From positions 1,488,001 to 1,552,000 of the forward strand of contig NZ_CP058215.1 of assembly GCF_013388255.1 (NCBI RefSeq): a stretch of 64,000 nucleotides of DNA, in the 5' to 3' direction. The stretch is from Methanolobus zinderi. GTDB lineage: Archaea > Halobacteriota > Methanosarcinia > Methanosarcinales > Methanosarcinaceae. The notes under the pieces are model-generated. The model worked only from the letters and a program-made list of their open reading frames with translations. It did no database searches and was not told the DNA's origin. Each line of letters begins with the position of its first letter. The first letter of the stretch is position 1. Both the position numbers and the translations under genes were made by a program. This document shows positions 56,603 through 60,187 of the stretch, in pieces.

Positions 56603-57469
56603 ATGACAGTGATGAATATAACCGGATGCAGGATGTTTGAGGATGAGATAGTTGATACATTATGTAAAGACCCGAAGATCGATGATATAATCATTATTGA
56701 AAACCAGGAGTCTGCCGGCCTGACAGAAAAACTGGAGAAATGCGGTATCTCCTACAGAATGATTTCTCCGGATGAGATCTCAAATTTATACAGCTCAGCA
56801 AACAACAATGAGTATGTCGTTACGGTCAACATCATGCCCCTTTCATTACACGGCGATCCAAAACACCTGAGAGACCAGGTCTACGGTAGTATAAAACGTA
56901 TCGCTGATTTCTCTGATGGCATCTTTTTATTCTACGGCCTCTGCGGGAATGTGCTCAGGAGAATAGAAAAAGATCTTGATCAATTGCCCTGTCCCGTCTC
57001 TATCTTGAAAGACAATGAAGGAAAGATAGTGGACGATTGCATTGGTGCGGCAATTGGCGGTCGCAAGTCCTTTTTGAAGATTGTATCCGGTTTCAACCGA
57101 AAGAGCGCAATAGTAATGACACCCATGTGGGTGAAGAACTGGCAGGAAATGTTCCAGCACAGCGGTTTTATCGAGAACAGGGAAGATATCGAAATGGCCA
57201 GGTTCGTCCTAGATTCCATGGGTTATGAAACTGTCGTGAAAATAGACACCGGCCTGCAGTACACCGATGGCTACCATGAGATGATCGAGGAGTTCGCCGA
57301 CACATTCCAGCTCAATATCCTTGAAATTAAAGGTAAACATGAGATTATCAATGGTTCCTATGCAGTTTTCAGAGACAAGGTAATGGAATCTCAAACTATA
57401 ACAGGCTCCGGGGATGTATTTGCTGAAATCGGAAATGAAATTGAAAGTCCGATGGTTAAAACTGCCTGA
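56603..57469 (+). CDS. DUF1638 protein
   Basis: 288 residues with the DUF1638 marks: MNITGCRMFEDEIVDTL, then FSDGIFLFYGLCGNVLR and DDCIGAAIGGRKSFLK, with conserved cysteines CRM, LCG and DDC. DUF1638 proteins are almost restricted to organisms that use corrinoid methyltransferases, where they lie beside methylamine, methanol or glycine betaine genes; the function is unproven. Here it is upstream of a BCCT betaine transporter in the same direction, with a gap of 140 bases. AGAGGATTT precedes the ATG. Confidence 0.85.
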   Translation: MTVMNITGCRMFEDEIVDTLCKDPKIDDIIIIENQESAGLTEKLEKCGISYRMISPDEISNLYSSANNNEYVVTVNIMPLSLHGDPKHLRDQVYGSIKRIADFSDGIFLFYGLCGNVLRRIEKDLDQLPCPVSILKDNEGKIVDDCIGAAIGGRKSFLKIVSGFNRKSAIVMTPMWVKNWQEMFQHSGFIENREDIEMARFVLDSMGYETVVKIDTGLQYTDGYHEMIEEFADTFQLNILEIKGKHEIINGSYAVFRDKVMESQTITGSGDVFAEIGNEIESPMVKTA

Positions 57470-57609
57470 AACAGAGAAGTTCGATCTATAGCAGAGCTGT
57501 TTTCTGTGATCTTAATTTTTACTTTTTTACAGGACGTACTAATACATAGTCGAAAGTTTTTTGTAATTTGCCCTTTTGCCATTAGTATCTCGTGGCGAGG
57601 AACAAAACA

Positions 57610-59205
57610 ATGGATGGAAGGAGAAATTCCGGATTAAACTCATATGTTTTTTCAGTATCTGCAGCTCTGGTATTGTTCTTCGTTATCATAGGAGTCCTTT
57701 TTACAGAAAGACTGACTGATGCATTCACATCCGTACAGGATCTGATAGTGAGCAATTTCGGCTGGTTCTATATCCTTTCTGTTGCCTTTTTCCTGATATT
57801 TGTAATCTGGCTCTACCTGAGTCCCTACGGCAATATAAGACTGGGAAACAGCTCTGACAGACCGGAGTACAGGGACACTACCTGGTTTGCAATGCTCTTC
57901 AGTGCAGGTATGGGGATAGGTCTGCTTTTTTACAGTGTCGCCGAACCTATAATCCACCTTGCATCTCCAAGGGAAGCTGCACCGGGAACAGTGGAAGCTG
58001 CAGTGGAGGCAATGAATATCACATTCTTCCACTGGGGACTGCACGCATGGGCGATCTATATTATAGTGGGCCTTGCCCTGGCTTATTTCTCATACAGACA
58101 TGACATGCCACTGACCATCAGATCTACAATGTATCCGATATTCGGTGACCGGATATACGGGGTACGCGGTAATATCGTTGAAGTGCTGGCAATCTTCGGT
58201 ACCTTGTTCGGTGTCGCCACATCACTGGGTCTTGGAGTGATGCAGATAAACTCAGGCATGGATTATCTCGGTCTGATGTCGGTATCCGTGAACAACCAGA
58301 TACTTCTCATAGCATTCATAACGCTGGCTGCCACAACTTCAGTGATGTCAGGACTGAACCGCGGTATACGCATACTGAGTCAGATGAATATCATGCTGGG
58401 CCTCATACTTGTTGTCTTTGTTTTCATAGTAGGTCCCTCGGTATTTCTTTTGAGCTCATATGTACAGAGCATAGGTTACTATCTGCAGCACATCGTTTCC
58501 CTGACTTTCCAGACAGATGCCTTTACCGGAATAGAATGGCAGAAGACCTGGACGATGTTCTACTGGGGATGGTGGATATCCTGGTCCCCGTTTGTCGGGA
58601 TGTTCATTGCCCGGATATCCAAAGGTCGTACTATAAGGGAGTTTATCCGGGGAGTACTGCTTGCCCCTGTTCTGGTCACATTCATATGGATCATTGTTTT
58701 CGGAAACACTGCGATACACATGGAAATCTTCGGAAACGGAGGGATTATTCAGGCTGTACAGACCAGCATCCCCACGGCACTCTATGTCCTGCTGGACGGA
58801 CTGCCGGGCTCTCTGCTGAGTTCTGCTCTTGCCACAATTGTAGTCATGACCTTCTTTGTGACCTCCTCAGATTCGGGTTCCCTTGTGATATCCATACTCT
58901 CCTCCGAAGGTAACCCTAAACCCGCAAAACCTCTGAGGCTGTTCTGGTCCCTGCTGCAGGGTGCTGTTGCTGCTGTACTTTTATTGACTGGCGGTCTGGT
59001 GGGGCTACAGACAGCTGCACTTACGACAGCCCTGCCATTCTGTATTGTCCTGATACTTATGTGCTACAGTATATATAAGGGGCTTAAAGCAGAATCAGAC
59101 GGAAAGAGTATCTCAGAACTGGAAAACAGATCACCGGAAGGTACATCTGACAACAAAGCCAAACAGATGATAGGAGAACTTTTAGGGGGTGAAGCAGATG
59201 AGTAG
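57610..59205 (+). CDS. BCCT-family betaine/choline/carnitine transporter
   Basis: 531 residues from the ATG at 57610, which has CGAGGAAC upstream; a GTG at 57592 has none. Twelve membrane helices with the BCCT signatures AGMGIGLLFYSVAEPIIH and MFYWGWWISWSPFVGMFIAR, containing the Trp-rich substrate box. The family imports betaine, choline or carnitine driven by Na+ or H+. In Methanosarcinales, betaine is an osmolyte, and in some Methanolobus it is a methanogenic substrate. The downstream small gene overlaps its end by eight bases. Confidence 0.93.
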   Translation: MDGRRNSGLNSYVFSVSAALVLFFVIIGVLFTERLTDAFTSVQDLIVSNFGWFYILSVAFFLIFVIWLYLSPYGNIRLGNSSDRPEYRDTTWFAMLFSAGMGIGLLFYSVAEPIIHLASPREAAPGTVEAAVEAMNITFFHWGLHAWAIYIIVGLALAYFSYRHDMPLTIRSTMYPIFGDRIYGVRGNIVEVLAIFGTLFGVATSLGLGVMQINSGMDYLGLMSVSVNNQILLIAFITLAATTSVMSGLNRGIRILSQMNIMLGLILVVFVFIVGPSVFLLSSYVQSIGYYLQHIVSLTFQTDAFTGIEWQKTWTMFYWGWWISWSPFVGMFIARISKGRTIREFIRGVLLAPVLVTFIWIIVFGNTAIHMEIFGNGGIIQAVQTSIPTALYVLLDGLPGSLLSSALATIVVMTFFVTSSDSGSLVISILSSEGNPKPAKPLRLFWSLLQGAVAAVLLLTGGLVGLQTAALTTALPFCIVLILMCYSIYKGLKAESDGKSISELENRSPEGTSDNKAKQMIGELLGGEADE

Positions 59206-59677
59206 CTGGAAAAGGAAACTAAGGAATATATTCCGAACAGATAAGGATGATTCGGAAGATCAGACTGTTAAAGAGGCACATACAAAGTTTGCAGAACTCA
59301 ATATGCGGGATTTCTTCAAACACGTAGTGTTCCCTGCTTATGATGATCTGAAAGAGGAGATCGAGAAATACGGGCGAACCGTCGTGATCGATGTTGATGA
59401 AACAGGGCTGATATCCGCAACCCTCACAGTGTATGCACCTTCTGACAAAGATCCAGACGAGATGATCGAAGAGTTCTATTTTGAGATAAGAGGCCGGGTC
59501 TACCAGAAGGGAGAGTTTGCCTTCCCTGCACATGCGGACGAGGAACAGCCACCGGTCACAAAAGTGGAGATGCTGCTTCGAAGTGGAAGCATCCATGAAT
59601 ATGACATAAAAGACCTATCCCAGGATGATATCGTGGAAACTTTTGTCAATGAGTATTCCAAATGGATCAATTATTAA
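59198..59677 (+). CDS. Unknown 159-residue protein coupled to the BCCT gene
   Basis: The ATG at 59198 overlaps the transporter stop by eight bases and has the strong ribosome site AGGGGGTGA, so the two are translationally coupled. The product is soluble, acidic, with strands (RTVVIDVDETGLISATLTVY) flanked by helices. No family is recognised. It may regulate or stabilise the transporter, as BCCT carriers are often controlled by associated domains; this is a position-based guess only. Confidence 0.65.
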   Translation: MSSWKRKLRNIFRTDKDDSEDQTVKEAHTKFAELNMRDFFKHVVFPAYDDLKEEIEKYGRTVVIDVDETGLISATLTVYAPSDKDPDEMIEEFYFEIRGRVYQKGEFAFPAHADEEQPPVTKVEMLLRSGSIHEYDIKDLSQDDIVETFVNEYSKWINY

Positions 59678-59737: not shown

Positions 59738-60187
59738 TCAAATTTGAATAGCAAAGTAAGCGACTGCTGCGTACCTGAATAATTTTCCCAGAAAAACAAA
59801 AATGACAAACTGAGAAAAACTGTAGTGTAACACACCTCCAGCCACGGCGATGGCATCACCTATTCCCGGTAGCCAGGTAAAAAAAAGAGAGATAGCACCA
59901 TATTTCCCGAAATAGGCTTCTGCACGTTTGAGCTGTTTATCAGATATTTTCATATATTTGCTTATGAGTAAGGTTCTCCCCTTTAATCCGATATAATAAG
60001 AAGTACACGCTCCAAGAAAATTTGCTATTGATGCCACAAGAACAACACTGTGGACATTAAAATTACCAAGGACCATCAACACTAAAAGGCCTTCGGAGCC
60101 AAGTGGCAATATTGTTGAAGCCAGAAAACTTGTTACAAAGAGGCTTATGTAACCATAATCTGTTAGGAGGAGCATTAAATCTACCAT
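59738..60187 (-). CDS. DedA/YqaA-family (SNARE-associated) membrane protein
   Basis: 149 residues with about four membrane helices. GYISLFVTSFLASTILPLGSE at the start, NFLGACTSYYIGLKG in the middle, and YFGKYGAISLFFTWLPGIGD with AGGVLHYSFSQFVIFVFLGK later are the short YqaA-type branch of the DedA/VTT family. The Gly-rich LPGIGD loop is the conserved functional site. DedA/VTT proteins move lipids across membranes. It appears monocistronic and complete. Confidence 0.85.
   Translation of the reverse strand: MVDLMLLLTDYGYISLFVTSFLASTILPLGSEGLLVLMVLGNFNVHSVVLVASIANFLGACTSYYIGLKGRTLLISKYMKISDKQLKRAEAYFGKYGAISLFFTWLPGIGDAIAVAGGVLHYSFSQFVIFVFLGKLFRYAAVAYFAIQI

Follow-up and report, generated by a model that had tools for sequence, protein, structure and literature searches.

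Closest described carriers and the Methanolobus zinderi locus

The gene pair analysed here lies in a 64,000-nucleotide stretch of the Methanolobus zinderi genome (contig NZ_CP058215.1, positions 1,488,001 to 1,552,000, the whole of which we refer to as the window) and encodes a BCCT carrier followed by a protein of 159 residues; its closest described relatives are BetT of Escherichia coli (8ybq/8ybr), the glycine betaine carrier BetP of Corynebacterium glutamicum, the Na+/trimethylamine (TMA) symporter TmaT (8zw8) and the opuD-mtgB genes of the methylotrophic methanogen M. vulcani B1d. Truncating the C-terminal domain (CTD) of BetT abolishes osmotic activation. For BetP, passages in two papers describe the C-terminal extension as crucial for activation by osmotic stress (PMC6562126, PMC10710835), the first citing, among others, work titled on the osmotically activated E. 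coli BetT, and a passage in a third speaks of the importance that the C-terminal domains of BCCT proteins are believed to have for osmosensing (PMC7876524). In transmembrane helix 3 (TM3) the motif GMGIG is given as typical of glycine betaine carriers and GIGIA/D of choline carriers (a passage in PMC6562126), and in M. vulcani B1d the predicted betaine transporter gene opuD is placed directly upstream of mtgB (a passage in PMC6855144).

At the M. zinderi locus the domain that is fused to the carrier in BetT appears as a separate, overlapping gene, and we consider it probable that positions 57592-59677 form an operon of two genes that encodes a split glycine betaine importer under osmotic regulation, with the CTD as its sensor subunit. 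The features concerned are:

57592-59205, + strand: BCCT carrier, the membrane subunit, 537 residues from GTG 57592 (alternative start ATG 57610), TAG stop
59198-59677, + strand: predicted stand-alone BetT-type C-terminal cytoplasmic domain, proposed osmosensory/regulatory subunit, 159 residues, from profile and fold matches
59198-59205, + strand: 8-base overlap of the two genes, ATGAGTAG, closely preceded by GGGGGTGA, which may serve as a ribosome-binding site

The first protein exceeds the curated cut-offs of both PF02028 (641.9 bits, cut-off 27) and TIGR00842 (521.9, cut-off 407.55) and belongs to the BCCT family, its best solved relatives being TmaT, BetT and BetP. Its core is 40% identical to that of E. 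coli BetT, but it scores 526.1 bits against the NCBIfam BetT model NF007399, below the cut-off of 695, the C-terminal portion of that model maps to the second gene and not to the carrier, and its TM3 motif is GMGIG where E. coli BetT has GIGID; the choline-type GIGIA/D is absent. With GMGIG and the aromatic residues of TM4 and TM8 it has the motifs of a glycine betaine carrier, although its 605.6 bits against NF047988, the model for glycine betaine uptake carriers, remain under the cut-off of 650, and the BetP match stops at residue 499 of the window carrier. The carrier is a betaine-type core without the BetT CTD, and where BetP has an extension the proposed regulatory domain is here a second protein. 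The preliminary description of this stretch, made from the sequence alone, had listed a DUF1638 gene, a BCCT gene of betaine type and a 159-residue gene joined to the latter by an eight-base overlap; positions and families are borne out (PF07796 at 121.5 bits, PF02028 as above), as is the overlap (TAG 59203-59205, ATG 59198), and the motifs support the betaine type.

The small protein as a detached BetT domain

The archaeal family to which M. zinderi belongs was searched in 111 genomes, of which 23 contain homologues of the small gene, and the gene is under purifying selection, both against UBA118 (nonsynonymous divergence, dN, 0.008; synonymous divergence, dS, 0.099) and against M. halotolerans (dN 0.154, dS 2.1, the latter near saturation); the gene is therefore real. 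No Pfam family matches its product. The protein aligns with residues 537-658 of the 675 in the NCBIfam BetT model, its C-terminal part, at E 2.6e-4, and the same region is matched by 18 of 20 aligned homologues, the best at E 7e-14. When an archaeal profile of 19 homologues was compared with all solved chains, the BCCT chain 8ybq came first (residues 544-661, E 0.0023; next match 0.12), and the title of its sister entry 8ybr names the choline transporter BetT; the archaeal profile also matches the C-terminus of a fused BCCT protein of the Natronospiraceae at E 9.3e-18. Of the two profiles used, A1 was made from 19 of the 23 archaeal CTD loci and A2, the wider one, from the window protein and 19 of the 20 loci of a wider scan (L063 left out); in a sample of gammaproteobacterial genomes A2 matched 33 places, and 28 lie within long BCCT-sized frames. 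A plasmid search returned eight records, seven annotated "BCCT family transporter" and one betT. Single-sequence phmmer against the PDB returned only Dlp-2 at E 0.49, the single PHROGs match was an unannotated family with 667 positions (E 0.033), and no phage sequence matched the small protein.

The AlphaFold2 model of the small protein (m74dc616e1f0c; pLDDT 79.4, pTM 0.68) consists of two helices, one short and one long, followed by five strands and a closing helix, and its top structural alignment among 998 chains aligned is BetT 8ybr_A, residues 539-659 (Z 10.9, root-mean-square deviation (rmsd) 2.9, 113 residues); other matches, at Z 6-10, include Mediator, a centromere protein, SycT and CapZ. 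It is the profile evidence that carries the identification, and by it the small protein is to be classed as a distant, detached homologue of the BetT CTD. The preliminary description had suggested a new carrier regulator: the protein does belong with the carrier and is probably a regulator, but it is not wholly new.

Pairing with one carrier type

Within the 111 genomes of the archaeal family, BCCT genes occur in 27 genomes at 41 places, and up to about 4 kb around each place was scanned for CTD, MttB and DUF1638 genes. At 24 places the carrier is of the window's type (type A), and at 21 of these the CTD gene follows directly downstream on the same strand, the carriers being at least 68% identical to that of the window. 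The remaining three are Methanohalobium L081 (64%), L114 (67%, truncated where its contig ends) and L112 (55%, with an interrupting TAG); both Methanohalobium genomes carry the CTD gene elsewhere, unlinked (L118, L119), and in one of them, G029, it lies about 143 kb from a BCCT gene on one contig. CTD gene and type A carrier co-occur in 23 genomes, and by these searches the other 88 have neither. The 17 other BCCT places, with carriers 28-47% identical to the window's, have no CTD gene (at L104, G071:C22, which ends about 350 bases behind the BCCT gene, from the whole-genome search), a partition by carrier type; three of the 41 places, all of this other type, adjoin an MttB-family gene. The pairing with the carrier that the preliminary description had proposed is conserved at 21 of the 24 type A places, and the small gene does not accompany BCCT genes of the other type.

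GMGIG is present in TM3 of every one of the 21 archaeal split carriers, and aromatic residues are found by pattern in TM4 of 20 and in TM8 of all 21. Counted by species, the CTD gene is present in Methanohalophilus (6/8), Methanohalobium (2/2), Methanosalsum (2/3), Methanolobus (9/27), Methanococcoides (3/11) and a further genus, g5 (1/4).

Some single loci deserve mention. The TAG-interrupted BCCT gene L112 (G029:C2) lies on a 164-kb second Methanohalobium contig without a CTD gene. At L083, L086 and L088, in three genomes lacking the CTD gene, a carrier gene of the second type is directly followed by an MttB-family gene (570-bit class). A profile search also found a CTD remnant of 52 residues with two TGA stops near a contig end (L132, G009:C73:178-330), which we counted as no gene and which probably reflects gene loss.

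Junction of the two genes

In the window the CTD gene begins at ATG 59198, with a GTG 9 nt upstream of it, and shares its first eight bases with the end of the BCCT gene, and the overlap together with the possible Shine-Dalgarno sequence GGGGGTGA makes translational coupling of the two genes probable. Counted from where the BCCT stop ends, the CTD genes of the archaeal pairs start as early as -29 (or -38) and as late as +36 nt, 14 of the 21 at -4, and in 20 pairs the two genes are in different frames, abutting or overlapping by a few bases. Such an arrangement might also be left by a sequencing error or a programmed frameshift within one gene, an explanation that we reject as hardly credible: the junctions vary over more than one frame relation, L084 has its CTD start in the same frame 36 nt after a TAA, the genes are unlinked in Methanohalobium, and both open reading frames (ORFs) are under purifying selection.

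The extent of the transcription unit is suggested by what flanks the pair. Upstream lies:

57470-57591, no strand: intergenic gap of 122 bp with T-runs, TTTTTACTTTTTTA, a possible transcription boundary and the start region of the BCCT-CTD unit

Downstream, a VTT domain gene (59738-60187) is on the opposite strand. Because of this gap and this neighbour the most economical unit is the BCCT gene plus the 159-residue gene. A promoter and terminator scan gave no excess over shuffled sequences.

The BCCT stop is TAG (amber) in the window and in L115, L116 and L117, where read-through would add about a dozen residues; in M. zinderi this amber stop occurs in a genome whose MttB gene carries an in-frame TAG. 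L115, from the KhS metagenome-assembled genome (MAG), and L116, from M. bombayensis, have ATA at the position of the window's CTD ATG, the next ATG, GTG or TTG lying about 105 nt inside the gene, which possibly indicates a non-standard start or altered translation.

Bacterial pairs, solitary domains and trees

A wider scan of bacterial and archaeal genomes yielded 20 loci, 15 of them archaeal, one in a genome of the Natronospiraceae (Gammaproteobacteria) and four in the Planctomycetes-Verrucomicrobia-Chlamydiae (PVC) group. The Natronospiraceae genome combines a split pair, whose genes overlap by 4 bases and whose BCCT is 55% identical to that of the window, with a fused protein and a solo CTD gene. 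Within its order 6 of 19 genomes match and five have the split pair, with carriers 55-63% identical. The sample of the gammaproteobacterial class comprised 369 genomes, of which 25 match at 33 places (three split, two solo and 28 fused by frame length); 26 of the 28 were checked as BCCT-CTD fusions, and G818:C3 and G729:C6 are called fused by open-frame length alone. The four PVC loci (L077, L078, L079, L080) encode solo CTD-like proteins of about 140 residues among varied gene neighbours. In a distant archaeal family (f8), weakly matching solo CTD-like proteins occur in 5 of the 392 genomes sampled in the phylum, which is also that of M. zinderi.

The carrier tree gathers the 21 archaeal split rows in one group (support 96/66) and the five gammaproteobacterial split rows in another (99/97). 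Both fall, with two fused rows and L081, within a larger group supported at 99/95, and outside the split/fused group lie the 17 archaeal carriers without a CTD (98/98). This tree left out BCCT pieces shorter than 440 residues (the interrupted L112) and the contig-cut L114, and one of its 29 fused rows, L161_2, is the second BCCT of its locus, its own tail not seen. In the CTD tree the Methanohalobium solo proteins fall inside the archaeal split group (82/83). Judging by these trees, the unlinked Methanohalobium gene would be a relocated partner, and the BCCT-CTD pair may have passed between halophilic bacteria and methanogens; the fused rows L131 and L144 sit beside split rows on long branches or with weak support and set no direction of fusion or fission.

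Two sets of solitary genes have neighbours or paralogues of their own. The solo Natronospiraceae CTD gene (L076, 3851-4456) is divergent from an AbgT-family transporter gene (PF03806, 690 bits), and among the weak archaeal loci L123-L128 there are two paralogues each in G251 and G260, one at L128 lying downstream of an AMP-binding enzyme gene.

Proposed mechanism and its alternatives

In the mechanism that we propose, the BCCT protein would form the membrane carrier, probably driven by Na+, and the 159-residue protein would be the separate, co-translated counterpart of the domain that bacterial BetT carries fused to the transporter. The free CTD would dock on the carrier from the cytoplasmic side and, once docked, would switch uptake on when cytoplasmic ionic strength rises. 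We infer the single operon, the physical docking, the osmosensing by a free domain, the substrate and the Na+ coupling.

Several points weigh against this reading. Mediator chain 7enc_q (Z 10.0, rmsd 7.4; others 9.1-9.5) formally ties with 8ybr, and because it lies within 1 Z unit the fold alone is unspecific and does not single out BetT; plain Foldseek with the model of the small protein gave no match at E <= 0.001, and pairwise BLASTP against E. coli BetT reached E 0.16 in the C-terminal part, which is not significant. GMGIG is shared by 18 of the 29 fused rows and by 13 of the 17 archaeal rows without a CTD, and is no marker of carrier type. The top-scoring solved chain for the window carrier is TmaT 8zw8 (499 bits), which is described as TMA-specific, possessing a GXGXG motif and not binding betaine (passages in PMC11708041). 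The C-terminal helix that most archaeal carriers conserve, a possible docking site, is not shared by the bacterial split carriers or by Methanohalobium. No BCCT match was found in the four PVC genomes with a solo CTD-like gene, and the domain can exist without this carrier. Finally, the osmosensing literature used here concerns BetP, whose extension may be unrelated to the CTD.

Part of this evidence would fit a split BetT-type importer in which the free domain is merely an assembly or stability factor and no osmosensor, a reading that we regard as unlikely. Type III secretion chaperones do appear in the structural comparison at lower Z (SycT 7.7, rmsd 2.4, 86 residues; a Z of this size may reflect just a shared arrangement), some genomes that lack a BCCT match encode solo CTD-like proteins, and no docking segment is kept across all split carriers. 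On the other side, the nearest sequence relative of the small protein is the BetT CTD, the C-terminal extensions of osmosensing carriers are described as regulatory (passages in PMC6562126, PMC10710835), and the other archaeal BCCT type, including the copies beside MttB-family genes, does without the domain. The carrier's C-terminal helix as a general docking motif was considered and is unsupported, because neither the bacterial split carriers nor Methanohalobium have it.

A bolder form of the osmosensor reading, which we put forward tentatively and hold to be rather unlikely, is that the CTD is a dissociable, trans-acting osmosensor that would bind the carrier only at certain ionic strengths and so gate uptake. 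It would work from an unlinked gene in Methanohalobium and would belong to a wider family of stand-alone sensors regulating other targets, among them the PVC proteins in genomes without a BCCT match, the archaeal paralogues and the Natronospiraceae protein beside an AbgT-type carrier.

Within the open-licence literature and the terms searched, no report of a split BetT or of a BCCT-CTD gene pair came up. How osmosensing carriers are gated by their C-terminal domain is difficult to investigate while that domain is part of a membrane protein; a natural split, if true, would allow titration, swapping, structure determination of the sensor alone and its add-back to reconstituted carrier. At gene level, the presence of the CTD gene may tell osmoprotective BCCT carriers of methanogens from catabolic ones, and a conserved gene without a Pfam family gains an identity.

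Substrate and role of the carrier

The preliminary description had left the role of betaine uptake between osmoprotection and methanogenesis and had pointed to mttB/mtgB-like genes as the place to look. The M. zinderi genome, a single contig of 2.70 Mb, holds only one MttB-family (MTTB) gene, which has an in-frame TAG as in pyrrolysine-type MttB and, by its coordinates, is over 1.3 Mb away from the BCCT gene; no TAG-free MttB homologue, as an opuD-mtgB-mtgC module for betaine methanogenesis would have, is present in the genome or beside the carrier. Across the 23 CTD-bearing genomes all counted MTTB matches contain TAG, and G041 has no match. The genome also has ablB (350.9 bits, cut-off 205.1), the gene for an enzyme that makes N-epsilon-acetyl-beta-lysine, another compatible solute, so M. 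zinderi is probably an osmolyte user. Because the motifs fit glycine betaine and the only MttB-family gene has an in-frame TAG, uptake for osmoprotection is favoured over betaine methanogenesis and is the best-supported role; of the two roles first suggested, osmoprotection stands, and betaine methanogenesis in M. zinderi is rejected on account of that TAG.

A broader version of the catabolic role is that the carrier imports TMA or betaine as a methanogenic substrate and that the small protein regulates this catabolic uptake. We consider this quite improbable, though not without some basis: the best solved relative is the TMA carrier TmaT, which shares the GXGXG motif and the aromatic box, the genome has the TAG-containing MttB gene, and in M. 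vulcani B1d, likewise a methylotrophic methanogen, a predicted betaine carrier gene directly precedes mtgB (a passage in PMC6855144). However, the family's carriers found beside MttB-family genes (3 of the 41 places) form another clade without a CTD gene, and the sole MTTB gene of M. zinderi has its in-frame TAG and its distant location. TmaT differs further in that passages of its report mention no partner protein (PMC11708041), and the substrate of the window carrier is a prediction. According to a review, Methanohalophilus portucalensis accumulates external betaine, for which an ABC transporter is named (PMC1224877); a BCCT carrier in these methanogens does not come up in the passages on betaine uptake considered here.

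DUF1638 neighbour

Upstream of the 122-bp gap lies the gene that the preliminary description had joined to the carrier pair in one module and had taken as a mark of corrinoid clusters:

56603-57469, + strand: DUF1638 protein of 288 residues, one of five in the genome (PF07796, 121.5 bits, cut-off 27)

The protein is a member of the DUF1638 family by this Pfam score. Neither part of that proposal is supported in this genome. Of the 21 pairs, four (M. zinderi, UBA118, M. bombayensis and the KhS MAG) have DUF1638 directly beside the type A BCCT gene and a fifth (G049) has it about 1.7 kb upstream; in the remaining 16 no DUF1638 was found beside the BCCT gene within the flanks of about 4 kb, so the adjacency is seen in close relatives alone and is not conserved. 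As the T-run gap lies between them, DUF1638 need not share the BCCT transcript.

A single betaine-methylotrophy module of DUF1638, carrier and small protein is in our view very improbable, and we rejected the DUF1638-BCCT module as a candidate on the unconserved adjacency and on other copies without methyltransferase neighbours in Pfam. Support for it, besides the four adjacent cases and the fifth nearby, comes from Ruegeria pomeroyi: its DUF1638 protein SPO2162 was found at higher abundance on N-osmolytes, and together with RamA it is predicted to make reductive recharging of cobalamin possible (passages in PMC12478193). In M. zinderi, by contrast, the five copies are dispersed in the genome, and no methyltransferase or corrinoid Pfam family occurs among the 13 neighbouring ORFs within 1.5 kb of the other four. 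DUF1638 is probably unrelated to the transporter unit, its adjacency being local.

Around the other four copies the Pfam families found (some ORFs had no match) are DUF2099, hydantoinase-like, PspC, acetyltransferase, methionine sulfoxide reductase, histidine-kinase ATPase, NAPRTase, a regulator and CxxCxxCC; the copy in the window has a histidine kinase gene and the BCCT gene as its neighbours.

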